Shown here: one piece after another, positions 17,173 to 36,840 of the stretch
How positions within the stretch are numbered: position 1 is the stretch's first letter
How the letters are laid out: every line of letters starts with the position of its first letter
DNA from: Caulobacteraceae bacterium
GTDB taxonomy: Bacteria > Pseudomonadota > Alphaproteobacteria > Caulobacterales > Caulobacteraceae
Reading direction: 5' to 3'
Assembly: GCA_003164925.1 (NCBI GenBank)
Contig: PLRV01000088.1
Location: 1 to 39,804, forward strand
DNA length: 39,804 nucleotides
The notes under the pieces: model-generated
Seen by the model: only the letters and a program-made list of their open reading frames with translations
Told to the model about the DNA's origin: nothing
Database searches by the model: none
Made by a program: the position numbers and the translations under genes

Positions 17173-17276
17173 TAGTGCCCGATGGGTTTAGGCGGAATCG
17201 CCTAAACGCTGAATCGTGCTCTAGATTCAAATATTTAGAGCCGGATTCAGACTTCGAGAGAAGTCATCCGGCTCTA
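17173..17276 (+). repeat. Two-hairpin intergenic repeat, copy 1
   Basis: This 104-bp element matches copy 2 (33924-34027) at all but three positions. Hairpin 1 has an inner perfect stem TTTAGGCG/CGCCTAAA with loop GAAT and an outer arm pair that is imperfect here (TAGTGCCCGAT against ATCGTGCTCTA). Hairpin 2 has an 11-bp outer stem TTAGAGCCGGAT-like/ATCCGGCTCTA, a three-base bulge TCA and an inner stem GACTTC/GAAGTC closed by GAGA, a GNRA-type loop. Four GANTC sites lie at 17195, 17211, 17224 and 17244. Its last three bases, CTA, are the stop codon (TAG) of the minus-strand gene at 17274-17489. Confidence 0.9.
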
Positions 17277-17489
17277 ACTGACCAGCGTCGGACCTTCGGG
17301 GCCGCCAGACCCGCTTTTCACCAGGGCCAGGCCTTCGGACGTTATCTCCCAGCCGGCGCGGGTGCGCCGGGCGAAGCCCAGTTCCGTCAAGGCGCGAGCA
17401 TCGGCGATATTGATCCAGTCCACATCTGCGCCTCCCTGCTTGTCCACCAGGTTGCGAAGCGCGCTCAGTAGTTTGGGGGAAAGCGTCAT
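17274..17489 (-). CDS. Hypothetical small protein, winged-helix-like
   Basis: The 71-residue protein is the last of a four-gene operon. It has an amphipathic helix (LSPKLLSALRNLVDKQG), then INIADARALTELGFARRTRAGWEITSEGLALV, which reads like a winged-helix core: helix-turn-helix followed by a W-containing wing strand. This is a resemblance, not a family assignment. Its ATG overlaps the stop of the preceding gene (ATGA), showing coupling. Codon use matches the genome. Its TAG stop is formed by the terminal bases of the repeat element, so the original C-terminus may have been different. Confidence 0.7.
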   Translation of the reverse strand: MTLSPKLLSALRNLVDKQGGADVDWINIADARALTELGFARRTRAGWEITSEGLALVKSGSGGPEGPTLVS

Positions 17490-24464: not shown

Positions 24465-24568
24465 TCCCTCCCGGCAAATGTGCTTCCTGTGGCTGATCGC
24501 CCAGGCCCAGACAAGTGTACCGATGTATTAAATTCGGAAAAAACGTTCATGTCGAGCGAGACATCAGA

Positions 24569-24907
24569 ATGAATCGATGGTCGGTTATAGCGATATTCTT
24601 TGTTTCAGCCATTTCTGCTTGCTATTTAATATCGAAGTTATATTTTTTAGAGAATAAAAGCTATTCTATAGCATATTCCATGATCGGAAAATCTAATAAA
24701 ATATCGTCAGAAACTGGCGGTATAAGAGACATTAGTTTGAACTTGATCAAATCGAGCCTGTCTGAGTCTAAAGCCTCTGGCCGAGCAACGCTCTGCCTGC
24801 AGGTGCTCGGAGAGAGACAGAACCGGGACGTGACGGTGAATTTGCAAAAGCGCGACGGCGCCTGGAGTGTCGTTTCCGCCGCCATGGGCGGCGAACAATT
24901 GCGATAG
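24569..24907 (+). CDS. Coa1-like membrane-anchored small protein
   Basis: The 112-residue protein has one N-terminal membrane helix (residues ~5-25) and a soluble domain. Its pattern, YSMIGKSNKISSETGG, then ASGRATLCLQVLGERQNRDVTVNLQKRDGAWSVVSA, resembles the cytochrome oxidase assembly factor Coa1/Tim21-type fold, where small anchored proteins end with strands like (V/T)V...KRDG.W.L. The first two-thirds of the gene is markedly AT-rich (ATA, TTA and AGA codons) compared with its neighbours, suggesting recent transfer. The ATG at 24569 is chosen because the membrane helix follows directly; an upstream frame to 24515 adds a non-hydrophobic stretch. Confidence 0.55.
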   Translation: MNRWSVIAIFFVSAISACYLISKLYFLENKSYSIAYSMIGKSNKISSETGGIRDISLNLIKSSLSESKASGRATLCLQVLGERQNRDVTVNLQKRDGAWSVVSAAMGGEQLR

Positions 24908-24969
24908 AGCCTATCCGGCGAAAGAGTGGGGGCTCCGCTCGAATAAGCGCTAATTATTTGATTTTCCGT

Positions 24970-25023
24970 CAGATTCGAATATGCGGAGCCTGATTCAGGC
25001 TTCAAGGTGAAGCCATTGGGCTA
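24970..25023 (+). repeat. Two-hairpin intergenic repeat, diverged partial copy 3
   Basis: The sequence from AGATTCGAATAT onward aligns with the linker and hairpin 2 of the other copies. The inner stem GACTTC/GAAGTC has become GGCTTC/GAAGCC, keeping the pairing, and the outer stem is kept with two wobble pairs (AGCCTGAT with ATTGGGCT). Two GANTC sites (24972, 24992) remain at matching positions. Hairpin 1 is not recognisable. It lies between convergent genes, eight bases from the purD stop. Confidence 0.65.
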
Positions 25024-33470: not shown

Positions 33471-33926
33471 ATGCGAACCATCGATTTGTCCCCCCTTTAC
33501 CGTTCCGCCGTCGGCTTCGACCGATTGGCCTCCCTGCTGGAAACGGCCGCCGGCGCCGACGCGGCTTCTGGCTATCCGCCCTACAACATCGAAACCGTGG
33601 GCGAAAACGCCTATCGCATCGAGATCGCGGTCGCGGGATTCCGGCCGGAGGAGCTTAGCCTTGAGGTTCGCGAAAACCTGCTGACCGTGCAGGGCCATAA
33701 GGCTCAGGCTGAAGACCCTCGGCGGTTCCTGCACCGCGGACTGGCCGAGCGCAACTTCGAGCGACGTTTCCAATTGGCTGACCATGTGGAGGTGACCGAT
33801 GCCCAGCTCGCCGACGGCCTGCTGGTGATTTCCCTCAAGCGCGAGATTCCGGAGGTGCTGAAGCCGCGCAAGATCGAGATCAAGTCCAGCGCGAACGGTC
33901 AGCTGATCCGGGACAAGGCTGCTTAG
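33471..33926 (+). CDS. hsp20: Small heat shock protein, Hsp20 family
   Basis: The 151-residue ATP-independent chaperone prevents aggregation of unfolded proteins in the cytoplasm. The N-terminus (IDLSPLYRSAVGFDRLASLL) and the alpha-crystallin domain (YNIETVGENAYRIEIAVAGFRPEELSLEVRENLLTVQGHK, then FLHRGLAERNFERRFQLADHVEVTDAQLADGLLVISLKREIPE) are typical of the rhizobial/Caulobacter IbpA-like class. AAGAAGGA is the ribosome site and is predicted to be hidden in a hairpin. The TAG stop is also the first three bases of repeat copy 2. Confidence 0.95.
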   Translation: MRTIDLSPLYRSAVGFDRLASLLETAAGADAASGYPPYNIETVGENAYRIEIAVAGFRPEELSLEVRENLLTVQGHKAQAEDPRRFLHRGLAERNFERRFQLADHVEVTDAQLADGLLVISLKREIPEVLKPRKIEIKSSANGQLIRDKAA

Positions 33927-34027
33927 AGCACGATGGGTTTAGGCGGAATCGCCTAAACGCTGAATCGTGCTCTAGATTCAAATATCTAGAGCCGGATTCA
34001 GACTTCGAGAGAAGTCATCCGGCTCTA
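33924..34027 (+). repeat. Two-hairpin intergenic repeat, copy 2
   Basis: Best-kept copy, 104 bp. Hairpin 1: TAGAGCACGAT (33924) pairs perfectly with ATCGTGCTCTA (33964-33974) around an inner stem TTTAGGCG/CGCCTAAA. Hairpin 2: TAGAGCCGGAT (33987) pairs perfectly with ATCCGGCTCTA (34017-34027) around a TCA bulge and GACTTC-GAGA-GAAGTC. The middle, GCTCTAGAT...ATCTAGAGC, is itself a palindrome, so an alternative fold exists. GANTC sites lie at 33946, 33962, 33975 and 33995. Confidence 0.92.
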
Positions 34028-34049
34028 GGCGATCCTGCTCAATCGACGA

Positions 34050-34077
34050 GGGCGGCGTCTCAGCGCCGCCCTTTTTT
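34050..34077 (+). terminator. Rho-independent terminator after hsp20
   Basis: A perfect GGGCGGCG/CGCCGCCC stem with the six-base loop TCTCAG is followed at once by six T residues. It ends transcription from hsp20, beyond the repeat. It lacks a T-run in the other direction, so it does not serve emrB. Confidence 0.9.
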
Positions 34078-34106: not shown

Positions 34107-35663
34107 TCAGTGCGCCGATGGCGGCTTCATGAGCATCTTGGGCTTGGGCGCCAGCCAGATCGCGCTGGCGGACACAATCATCAGGGCCGAAACCACGGTG
34201 AAGATGTGGTTGGTCGACAGCATGACGGCCTGACCTTGGACCAGATTGTCCAGTAGGCTGGCCGCCTGGTTCTGGGCGAGCCCCATCTGGGTTAGGCCGT
34301 TGATCGTATCGCCGGCGCCATTCATCCGTTCCACCAGAGTCTGCCGCGCGGTGGTGGCGTGGTCGTCCCAGGCCGTTGTGGCGATGGAGGTGCCGAAGGC
34401 GCCGGCGGTGGTCCGCACGAAGTTGAGCAGGCCGGCCCCCGAGGCGACTTCCTCGGGCTTGAGCGCGCCCATGGCCAACGACATGAGCGGGATAAAGAAG
34501 AACGGCATGGCCAGACCCTGGGCGAGCTGCGGCCCGATCAACTGACCGTAGGACATGCTCGAGGTGAAGGTGCTGCGCCAGAACATGTCGCCGGCCAGCC
34601 AGAGAATGCCGAAGGTCACCAGGCGGCGCGGATCCACCTTGGTCACCAGGCCCGCGACGATGGGCGCGAAGATCACCGCCAGCACGCCATTGAAACCGGT
34701 TACACAGCCTGCCCAGCTGGCCGTGTAGCCCATGTCCAACTGCAGCCAGAGGGGGATGATTACCAGCGATGCATACATGCCGGCGAACGCCAGGGTCATG
34801 GCGAAGCAGGCGGCTGTGAAGCCTCGGTAGCGGAAGATGCGCAGGTCCACGATCGGGTGCTCTTCTGTAAGCTCCCAGATCAGGAAAGCGATGAATCCCA
34901 CCACGGCGACCACCAGAAGGCCGACGATGACCCAGGAAGAGAACCAATCCAGCTCCTTGCCCTTGTCGAGCATGATCTGCAGGGCGCCGACCCATAGGAT
35001 CAGCAGCCCCAGCCCCACGAAGTCCACCGGCAGCTTCCTGAGCACGTCCACGCGCGGCAGGGCGCGCAGGGCCAGAATCACCAGCCCGAACGCGACCGGC
35101 ACATTGATGAAGAACACCCAGGACCAGCCCAAATTATCCGAAATCGCCCCGCCCAGCACCGGGCCGGCGATGGGCGCCACCACGGTGGTCATGGCCCAGA
35201 TGCCCATGGTCTGGCCCCGCAGCTCCGGCGGCGAGAACCGCTGCAGCAGGGTCTGGGACATGGGCAGCAAGGGGCCGCCCGAGAGGCCCTGCATCACCCG
35301 GAAGAACACCAGGGCGCCCAGAGAGGGCGACAGGCCGCACATCATGGAAAAGAAGCCGAAGGCGCCGATAGCGATGATGAACACCCGGACCGCCCCGAAG
35401 CGACTCGCCAACCACCCGGTGAGCGGCACAGTGATGGCCTCGGCCACCGCATAGGAGGTGATCACCCAGGTGCCTTCCTGGGACGAAACCGCCAGGCCTC
35501 CGGCTATGTTGGGCACCGAGACGTTGGCGATGGTCATGTCCAGCACCGCCATGAAGTTGGCGGCGGCCAGGGCGAAGACCGCCAGGACCAGGGCGGAGCC
35601 GCGAAGAATGGTTTCGGGTGGCGGGCTGGAGGCCGCGGACGCGGCGCTGGAAGCGTCGGCCAT
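34107..35663 (-). CDS. emrB: MFS drug efflux permease, EmrB/DHA2 type
   Basis: The inner-membrane pump of a tripartite efflux system, driven by protons. The 518 residues show about 14 membrane helices, with ANFMAVLDMTIANVSVPNIAGGL (DHA2 motif D1 region), WVITSYAVAEAITVPLTGWLASRFG, and the antiporter motif GPVLGGAISDNLGWSWVFFINVP. GGAGG five bases before the ATG at 35663 sets the start, one base after the emrA stop. Third gene of the nodT-emrA-emrB operon. Confidence 0.94.
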   Translation of the reverse strand: MADASSAASAASSPPPETILRGSALVLAVFALAAANFMAVLDMTIANVSVPNIAGGLAVSSQEGTWVITSYAVAEAITVPLTGWLASRFGAVRVFIIAIGAFGFFSMMCGLSPSLGALVFFRVMQGLSGGPLLPMSQTLLQRFSPPELRGQTMGIWAMTTVVAPIAGPVLGGAISDNLGWSWVFFINVPVAFGLVILALRALPRVDVLRKLPVDFVGLGLLILWVGALQIMLDKGKELDWFSSWVIVGLLVVAVVGFIAFLIWELTEEHPIVDLRIFRYRGFTAACFAMTLAFAGMYASLVIIPLWLQLDMGYTASWAGCVTGFNGVLAVIFAPIVAGLVTKVDPRRLVTFGILWLAGDMFWRSTFTSSMSYGQLIGPQLAQGLAMPFFFIPLMSLAMGALKPEEVASGAGLLNFVRTTAGAFGTSIATTAWDDHATTARQTLVERMNGAGDTINGLTQMGLAQNQAASLLDNLVQGQAVMLSTNHIFTVVSALMIVSASAIWLAPKPKMLMKPPSAH

Positions 35664-35664
35664 G

Positions 35665-36840
35665 TCAGCCTCCGTGACTGGGCTCGCCGGATTTGGCGAC
35701 ATCGATCGTCGCCGCCATGGACAGGCCCAAACGCAGCGGGTGCTCCGCCAGTTCGTTGGGATCGAGGCGCACGCGCACCGGCAGGCGCTGCACCACCTTG
35801 ATCCAATTGCCCGTCGCGTTCTGGGCTGGGATCAGGGAGAAAGCCGATCCGGTGCCGCCCGACACGCCGACCACCACCCCGTGATAGACGACCCGGCCGC
35901 CGTAAAGATCGGACTTCAGCGTGACCGGCTGACCCGGCCGCACCCGGCGCAGCTGGCTTTCCTTGAAGTTGGCGTCCACAAAGGCCTGGGTTACCGGAAC
36001 AATGCTCATCAAGGTGACGCCCACCCCAACGCGCTGTCCGACCTCGACCTGCTTCTTGGAAACGACGCCGTCGAGCGGCGCACGGATCACCGTGCGCTCC
36101 AGATCCAGCTTGGCGGCGTCGCGCGCGGCGCGGGCCGCGGCCACCTGCGGGTTGGACTCCACCGCGCCCTGCACCAGGATTTGTTGGGCCTGGAACTGGC
36201 CTTCGGCGGCCTTGCGAGCGGCGGCGGCCTGGGCGGCGGCGGCCTGGGCGGCGGCGAGATTGGCTTTGGCGTTGTCGTAGGCGCTCTTGGCCGCGCTCAG
36301 CTCATCGCCTGAAACGGCGCCGGAGTCGGCCAGACCCGCCCGACGGTCATAGTCGAGCTTGGCCTTGGCTAGATCGGCCGTCCCGGCGTCGATCTGAGCC
36401 TGGGCTCGCGCCAGATCGGCGCCCCGCGCCGTCACCTGGGCCGACAGGGAATCGGCTGTGGCGGCCTCGCCGTTGATCTGGCGCGCCGTCGCCTCGTAGT
36501 CGGCCTCGGCCTTTTGATAGGCAAACGTCGCATCGGCGGGGTCCAGCTCAACCAGCACGTCGCCGGCTTTAACCTGGTCGGTCTCATGCACGTGGACGGC
36601 CTTGACCGCCCCACCCACCAGCGGCGTCACCTGAGCCACCTCGGCGCCGACATAGGCGTCGTCCGTGGTGACATAATGCGAGGCCACCAGCAGCCACCAG
36701 AGCCCGAACAGAACCAAGATCACCGCGCCGGCTGCGCCCAACATGGCGAACATCCGCTGACGCTGCTGCGCGCGATGCTCGTTAGTCCCCGCGGGGGCAG
36801 CCGCAGCCTGGGCGGAAGGACCAGATTGATCGTCAGCCAT
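35665..36840 (-). CDS. emrA: Membrane fusion protein, EmrA/HlyD family
   Basis: The periplasmic adaptor that links the permease to the outer membrane channel. The 391-residue protein has one N-terminal membrane helix (~31-53), the lipoyl half-motif VGGAVKAVHVHETDQVKAGDVLVELDP, a long Ala-rich coiled coil (~105-215) and IRAPLDGVVSKKQVEVGQRVGVG, the second lipoyl part. QAFVDANFKESQLRRVRPGQPV is typical of EmrA. AAGGA seven bases before the ATG at 36840 sets the start. Confidence 0.94.
   Translation of the reverse strand: MADDQSGPSAQAAAAPAGTNEHRAQQRQRMFAMLGAAGAVILVLFGLWWLLVASHYVTTDDAYVGAEVAQVTPLVGGAVKAVHVHETDQVKAGDVLVELDPADATFAYQKAEADYEATARQINGEAATADSLSAQVTARGADLARAQAQIDAGTADLAKAKLDYDRRAGLADSGAVSGDELSAAKSAYDNAKANLAAAQAAAAQAAAARKAAEGQFQAQQILVQGAVESNPQVAAARAARDAAKLDLERTVIRAPLDGVVSKKQVEVGQRVGVGVTLMSIVPVTQAFVDANFKESQLRRVRPGQPVTLKSDLYGGRVVYHGVVVGVSGGTGSAFSLIPAQNATGNWIKVVQRLPVRVRLDPNELAEHPLRLGLSMAATIDVAKSGEPSHGG

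Follow-up and report, generated by a model that had tools for sequence, protein, structure and literature searches.

A double-hairpin repeat of the Caulobacter CIR type in Caulobacteraceae: a probable MITE-like element that inserts at YTAR and rebuilds stop codons

The stretch of DNA analysed here, referred to as the window, comprises 39,804 nucleotides of contig PLRV01000088.1 of a Caulobacteraceae bacterium (assembly GCA_003164925.1; genome G000 below), and it holds two full copies and one partial copy of an intergenic double-hairpin repeat. The reference full copy (33924..34027, plus strand), which was delimited by sequence, BLAST, folding and a covariance model, lies between an hsp20 gene that ends on the element (33471..33926, plus strand; PF00011, E 8.7e-19) and the convergent gene of an EmrB-type MFS transporter (34107..35702, minus strand; TIGR00711 over the cut-off). 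The second full copy (17173..17276, plus strand) stands between DUF4170 and a convergent open reading frame on the minus strand without a family match (17274-17489), for which the last three bases of the element (CTA) form the TAG stop codon. Both full copies had been described in a first-pass annotation made from the letters alone, and they differ, as it had said, at 3 of 104 positions (97% identity by BLAST). The diverged partial copy that it had also listed is real (24967..25022, plus strand; 26.1 bits and E 3.1e-6 with a profile HMM, E 1.1e-4 with the covariance model), and it consists of the linker and the second hairpin of an older subfamily, placed between a reading frame without a family match (24515-24907) and the convergent PurD; both unmatched reading frames, the first of them listed at 17277-17489, were taken from ORF calling alone. 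The reading frames confirm the reported tail-to-tail position of all three window copies, although this does not hold as a genome-wide rule. An Rfam scan of the window returned no family at its gathering score.

The element is 104 bp long and is made up of a first hairpin unit of 51 bases (H1, 33924..33974, plus strand), a 12-base linker (GATTCAAATATC, 33975..33986) and a second hairpin unit of 41 bases (H2, 33987..34027, minus strand) in which the same plan is repeated in inverted orientation. In H1, TAGAGCACGAT is followed by an inner stem (GTTTAGGCG/CGCCTAAAC), a TGA bulge and ATCGTGCTCTA, and H2, read on the minus strand, is TAGAGCCGGAT-GACTTC..GAAGTC-TGA-ATCCGGCTCTA. When H2 is read inverted, both units tend to follow the plan TAGAGCnnGAT-(inner palindrome)-TGA-ATCnnGCTCTA, in which the bulge consists of three unpaired bases on the 3' side of the hairpin only. 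The bulge reads TGA in 95 of the 143 distinct end combinations found in 227 units from 125 elements, a count restricted to units in which 9 or more of the 11 outer positions pair, many of these units coming from the same genomes. The element starts with TAGAGC and finishes with GCTCTA, its boundaries are sharp and its flanks are unrelated, with only one base per side in common outside it. Lengths of 98-117 bp were read for 39 of 40 matches in relatives, the remaining one being a 79-bp partial match, while subfamilies are distinguished by differing inner stems and second hairpins, some of them being about 113-115 bp long.

Copy 33924 is predicted to fold at -59.1 kcal/mol (z -11.2) and its other strand at -56.2 kcal/mol (z -9.6), values that were reached by 0 of 200 shuffles in either case. 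Near-identical outer arms had been attributed to each full copy; in copy 17173 the left arm is mutated (TAGTGCCCGAT). Inner palindromes vary among lineages, yet they remain palindromic. In 18 distinct H1 sequences from 19 genomes (the sample being 19 sequences selected for their 51-base length), pairing is seen in 97.7% of cells, both sides have changed in 13 of the 22 pairs, and double-change cells number 49 compared with 12.0 in shuffles, of which 0 of 500 reach 49. Such strong covariation indicates that the inner stems are maintained.

Several copies depart from this architecture. A bulge-free H1 that forms a perfect palindrome occurs in the window's genome (L034:5001-5101 and L036:5001-5101), in the copy-rich relative G148 (L241) and in G255 (L193), and the erasure of the TGA bulge in these copies looks like template switching inside the hairpin. 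At G000:C3:52705-52795 the interior of H1 is partly inverted and shortened with its outer arms intact, as if the hairpin tip had been flipped. At five further places in the same genome (C54:4882, C63:12518, C95:37182, C59:5083 and C54:5721) the outermost bases and the full H2 are kept and the inside of H1 is lost, apparently by deletion between short repeats.

The count of three copies given by the first-pass annotation was too low. BLAST with the window copy returned at least 40 near-full copies in the window's assembly (3,435,177 bases in 100 contigs), with 40 of 122 candidates scored, and with a covariance model trained on 36 of the 40 copies a hand count gave at least 99 places in the 3.44-Mb assembly at E<=1e-5 (100 hits from the 150 candidates scored out of 1427, one place found on both strands being counted once). 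Locus statistics were obtained on 738,585 bases in 84 pieces around the covariance-model hits; on these bases a profile HMM found 115 non-overlapping copies at E<=1e-4, of which 37 are young (defined as 95 bits or more) and near full length. Six contigs of this genome (C28, C65, C54, C15, C31 and C96) end in or near element copies, so that assembly breaks may hide additional ones.

With regard to its distribution, a survey of 41 genomes with stricter filters, in which both-strand matches were counted, gave a match at E<=0.01 in 11 genomes, all of them from the window's family (11 of 25), and in 0 of the 16 genomes from other families of the order Caulobacterales. Within the window's genus, 92 matches were obtained in G000 against 0, 2 and 0 in three other genomes, and the copy number of G000 is thus a recent burst; another element-bearing relative, G023, has 60 matches. 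Across the family, at least 88 of 300 genomes match at E<=1e-4, with 13 candidates scored per genome, and a scan of named genomes with the linker pattern gave one match, a Caulobacteraceae MAG. The H2 type of a relative's copy (L192) is present on Methylocystis and Acuticoccus (Hyphomicrobiales) plasmids at 81-83% over 54-58 bases. The plasmid search gave no match to the window copy or to the copy at L177, the phage search gave none to the L177 copy, and a viral-contig scan with the exact H1 pattern found none.

The flanks of the copies define the target of the element. In the window's genome, where the left TA is intact, Y (C/T) is found at -1 in 38 of 40 copies, and where the right TA is intact, R (A/G) is found at +1 in 55 of 60. 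Of the 33 copies that are intact at both ends, 32 show YTAR, compared with 920 of 2740 TAs in intergenic DNA generally. Elsewhere in the family, C stands at -1 in 27 of 27 cases, and +1 is occupied by G in 20, A in 6 and T in 1. It is well supported that the target is YTAR, in relatives preferably CTAG, and equally that on insertion CTAG becomes C-TA-(element)-TA-G, with a TA left on each side. For copy 33924, flank statistics and the empty sites in relatives place the presumed left and right copies of the duplicated target TA at 33924..33925 and 34026..34027, respectively, a 2-bp duplication being indistinguishable from the insertion of an element that carries one terminal TA itself.

The first-pass suggestion that the repeat could be a mobile hairpin element is borne out by empty orthologous sites in relatives. 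Eight of the ten matches of G148 were tested as insertions, and five of these (L178, L235, L236, L237 and L239) have an empty orthologue with a single TA that is gapless for 25 bases on either side, in G191 and/or G260. For L178, which was searched across 101 genomes of its genus with 15 fetched loci inspected, the empty site in G191 reads ...gccaaggaCTAGgctcgcgcc... and the filled site in G148 reads ...ccaggtccTA(element)TAGgcccgcgcc.... In eight more genomes YTAR is found at the start of the right flank of this site, as CTAG in G230, G104, G114, G319, G172 and G290, as CTAA in G327 and as TTAG in G317, with the left flank aligning only further upstream in G114, G319, G172 and G290 and with 3-base gaps beside the junction in G230 and G327; G329 is ambiguous, and a single flank aligned in G260, G331, G339 and G179. 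In G188 a different double hairpin occupies the same CTAG, which suggests that this site was probably hit twice.

The seven other insertions of G148 were tested against five genomes with their flanks joined by one TA. A gapless junction was obtained for L235, L236, L237 and L239 in G260 and/or G191, and no junction-spanning alignment was found among the five genomes for L238, L240 and L241, while some sites are kept in part with other sequence on one side (L235 in G327 and G230, L236 in G230, L237 in G327). Because the site is empty in most of the relatives inspected, precise loss would be a less parsimonious explanation than insertion. The repeat is a mobile but non-autonomous element, and its mobility is well supported. 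Same-genus relatives of G000 are 69-79% identical in the one region tried, so that the window's own sites are not alignable across the junction and the empty-site evidence is provided by the insertions of relatives. Head-to-tail matches occur in G023, as judged from coordinates only, abutting at C15:73-186 and 187-300 and with two bases in common at C41:58421-58534 and 58533-58648, an arrangement expected if an element inserted into the CTAG that ends another element.

Of 39 gene 3' ends that extend into an element, 35 have an overlap of exactly 3 nt, which means that the TA together with the G of the element rebuilds a TAG stop codon. In the window this is exemplified by hsp20, of which the TAG stop (33924..33926, plus strand) is formed by TA and the element's first G, and by the small minus-strand reading frame with its stop at 17274-17276. 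Using a home-made gene finder, 31 of the 62 full copies (both ends near intact, two copies at piece edges dropped) were found to coincide with a stop codon (in 4 copies at both ends), against an expectation of 21.6% that was calculated from non-coding YTAR sites weighted by target class and that counts all intergenic YTAR sites (p 1.0e-6, in binomial tests that treat copies as independent). Among young copies, a hand count gave 22 of 35 on a stop codon (p 1.6e-7). This gene finder missed purD in the window, and the orientation and stop-codon counts carry some error. Outside elements, 182 of 925 non-coding YTAR sites are at stop codons, and of the 251 TAG stop codons predicted in the fetched G000 stretches, 58 lie at elements. 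If upstream insertions are purged, the real expectation would be higher, and the excess at stop codons may therefore reflect selection rather than targeting.

The same tendency is seen in other genomes, in which the longest frame is in phase with the TAG at 54 of 67 element ends (p 2.5e-15), compared with 30 of 72 control YTAG sites. This test was confined to ends with an open frame of 60 or more codons upstream and started from 78 ends with TAG at 45 hand-chosen loci, 20 from three genomes and 25 of 39 sources. The TAG is in phase on both sides in 15 of 44 loci and on one side in 24. Of the two H2-type matches on plasmids, the one in Acuticoccus includes the final 3 bases of an annotated gene, and the one in Methylocystis has no annotated gene in contact with it.

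As regards gene orientation, the placement between convergent genes is a strong bias and not a rule. Young copies are convergent in 20, tandem in 9 and divergent in 4 of the 33 classifiable cases out of 37 (three others lie at contig ends and one overlaps a gene), and for all copies the corresponding numbers are 42, 50 and 13 (105 classifiable of 115). Convergent regions account for 9.1% of intergenic bases and 17.6% of gene junctions, and the bias of the young copies is significant on either basis (p 2e-13 and 4e-8, respectively). According to the home-made gene finder, 1 of 115 copies is intragenic and 2 of 115 overlap genes, the remainder being intergenic or at contig ends. Much of the convergent bias is explained because CTAG can be the stop codon common to two convergent genes, and the rest is probably due to the purging of upstream insertions.

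It had also been proposed that the repeat acts as a terminator, and strong hairpins between convergent genes are indeed what a family of bidirectional intrinsic terminators would offer. However, within the 8 bases beyond each of 165 element ends, four or more T occur in only 3 cases, which is below the intergenic background of 7.4%, and copy 33924 is followed about 20 bases on by a separate intrinsic-terminator-like hairpin with a T run (34048..34073, plus strand; a pattern match only). Since T runs are rarer than background and placement is not only convergent, with the 50 tandem and 13 divergent copies among 105, intrinsic terminator function was rejected, and we regard a terminator family as a most improbable explanation.

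The four GANTC sites within 54 bases that had been noted are present at element positions 23, 39, 52 and 72. They lie in the terminal loop of H1 (33946..33950), astride the TGA bulge of H1 (33962..33966), in the linker (33975..33979) and astride the TGA bulge of H2 (33995..33999), and they are kept in 27, 33, 32 and 33 of 36 young copies and in 9, 13, 7 and 16 of 18 old copies, respectively. A methylation-sensitive site had been among the first-pass proposals. In the 36 young copies, conservation is no higher in GANTC columns (0.960) than elsewhere (0.967, p 0.75). In the 18 old copies the values are 0.861 for GANTC columns and 0.791 elsewhere (p 0.058), and here retention at positions 39 and 72 is among the best (91st and 100th percentile among all offsets) but that at positions 23 and 52 is not (78th and 53rd). 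The two better-kept sites occupy equivalent positions in the two units, straddling the TGA bulge. Moreover, of 101 distinct units with an outer arm starting in ATC, 91 have GA directly before the arm, compared with 13 of 42 for other arms. Elements of relatives contain from 0 to 4 GANTC sites, with 2 of 40 lacking any, and the H1-loop site is missing in many of them. On these sequence patterns, GANTC belongs to a longer conserved block.

These data bear on the view that the repeat is a host regulatory module, either a CcrM (GANTC) methylation platform or a 3'-end RNA element under selection, of which the spread would be incidental. The retention of sites 39 and 72 in old copies, the GA that precedes arms starting with ATC and the placement in gene tails would all suit such a module. 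Nevertheless, the four sites are jointly not significantly better kept in young or old copies, their number varies in relatives down to none, insertion sites differ among species, and the conserved block (TAGAGC..GAT..TGAATC..GCTCTA) exceeds GANTC, as expected for a transposase site, all of which renders a host module improbable. Also unlikely is a gene-tail element family gated by the cell cycle, in which an enzyme would read paired TAGAGCnnGAT...TGAATCnnGCTCTA units and the element would move on hemimethylated post-replication DNA and land in CTAG, most often without harm where this is the stop codon common to two convergent genes, the host using the same-sense 3' hairpins to finish or protect its messages. 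If this were true, the CcrM site straddling the unpaired TGA of each hairpin would be a cell-cycle gate on movement, and both convergent genes would acquire a new TAG together with a 3' hairpin in the same sense.

The kinship with CcrM-associated intergenic repeats of Caulobacter that had been put forward is borne out in architecture, and by this architecture the element belongs with the Caulobacter CIR repeats, which are known here by description. Chen and Shapiro reportedly gave, in 2003, CIR copy numbers of up to 21, which differs from the about 100 copies found here. In a 2007 review, CIR repeats are described as sequences some 110 bp in length, with a pair of long inverted repeats, two arms and a linker, with GANTC at or near the terminal loop and TA at both termini, their target duplication being given as '?' and their mobility mechanism as needing more information (PMC2229807); they have also been reported to be strictly intergenic (PMC10969869). 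The present element resembles them in size (~110 bp), in its two hairpin arms and linker, in its TA termini, in the loop GANTC of one arm, in its intergenic position and in having Caulobacteraceae and other alphaproteobacteria as hosts. On the other hand, its target is TA at CTAG/YTAR where '?' is given for CIR (PMC2229807), and neither stop-codon landing nor a common unit plan appears in the CIR descriptions, as far as the available text of both sources goes (PMC2229807, PMC10969869).

Correia/NEMIS, ERIC and RUP are, according to the same review, non-autonomous sequences of about 100-200 bp with TA termini and target-site duplication, RUP being ascribed to IS630-Spn1 at TA targets (PMC2229807). 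They are like the present element in being small and non-autonomous, with TA termini and a target-site duplication (found here at 5 of 8 G148 sites), but their two ends pair as one stem-loop, whereas the element described here has two independent inverted hairpins with a common end that extends little beyond TAGAGC. RIME palindromes of Rhizobiales are intergenic and about 103-108 bp long. Together with Bru-RS1 and Bru-RS2 of Brucella, given as 103 and 106 bp (PMC10800456), they share with the element its size, palindromic nature, intergenic location and alphaproteobacterial hosts, in a comparison by description only.

Overall, the element is very probably a non-autonomous, MITE-like element of the Caulobacter CIR type that inserts at YTAR, rebuilds stop codons and is moved by a transposase acting in trans. 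Such a transposase, most likely of a TA-targeting DDE type, would read the paired units. Insertion at YTAR with a TA left on each side is shown by the empty sites in relatives and by the flank statistics of this genome. The TAG...CTA ends of the element rebuild a TAG stop for a gene on either side, so that it can land in the stop of one gene, or in a CTAG common to two convergent genes, with neither protein changed. Selection would remove insertions from genes and promoters, so that those in gene tails would remain and a convergent bias would arise. For each of two convergent genes the hairpins would be transcribed right after the stop codon, with the same sense, and as a side effect they probably stabilise the mRNA 3' ends or keep them apart.

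How alphaproteobacterial CIR-type repeats move was an open question in the 2007 review (PMC2229807), and the empty sites supply both the target (CTAG/YTAR) and the TA on each side. A literature search found no report of stop-codon landing or of a CTAG target for CIR-type repeats, which is not proof of absence. The rebuilding of stop codons by the ends of the element is an economical trick, which makes tail-to-tail insertion free of protein cost and provides a simple account of the accumulation of such repeats where genes converge. This placement may wrongly be taken to indicate a terminator.

The transposase was sought among the families Y1_Tnp, DUF4096/IS427 (PF13340) and DDE_3/IS630 (PF13358), with part of the hits inspected, and no partner insertion sequence with matching ends was accepted among 24 inspected Y1, IS427 and IS630 loci. 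In the window's genome no matching pair of ends was found at any of the four transposase loci examined out of five (the second DUF4096 hit, on C35, was left out). IS630-type elements prefer TA/CTAG targets. Among 16 copy-rich genomes, some of which are incomplete drafts (G136 is 83% complete), PF13358 is missing in 9 and PF13340 in 7, and both are missing in seven (G191, G079, G136, G071, G249, G188 and G119). The enzyme could be of a different family, could act from a distant relative or could since have been lost, and the common hairpin plan offers a handle for finding it.

REPINs consist of two imperfect palindromes that are inverted and moved as one unit, and they are intergenic. It may be asked whether the present repeat is such an element, moved by a Y1 (HUH) REP-associated tyrosine transposase that would act on single-stranded DNA at inverted imperfect palindromes with a CTAG tag. 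Two inverted imperfect palindromes in one intergenic unit are a likeness, as are the often asymmetric bulge and the YTAG at the outer foot of each hairpin, and the window's genome has one Y1 transposase. This gene is a single RAYT-like one (L126, G000:C3:179319-179636). However, Y1_Tnp was detected at E<=0.001 in 5 of 41 genomes, namely in 2 of 11 element-bearing ones (G000 and G024) and in 3 of 30 others, which is no consistent association, G023 has no Y1 gene despite its 60 matches, and the 3.3-kb locus of the Y1 gene in G000 contains no element of the family. Furthermore, the symmetric TA/YTAR target (Y-TA-R) fits double-strand cutting better, the hairpins are much longer, and the tag forms base pairs within the stem, whereas REPs, which are found in gene tails, have unpaired GTAG and CGTC tags (PMC3733652). 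A REPIN-like origin is consequently unlikely, and the MITE-like element with a transposase in trans is preferred.

Two loci in relatives combine a transposase gene with element-like sequence. At L287:1329-2440 (G050), an IS630-type transposase gene has element-like ends ~1.1 kb apart; it was not accepted as an autonomous copy, and its layout suggests an IS that invaded, or adjoins, the second hairpin of an ordinary element. At L291:1290-1401 (G260), a complete double hairpin lies directly beside an IS427-type transposase gene, and the first unit of this hairpin resembles what we take to be a common Rhizobiales palindrome.
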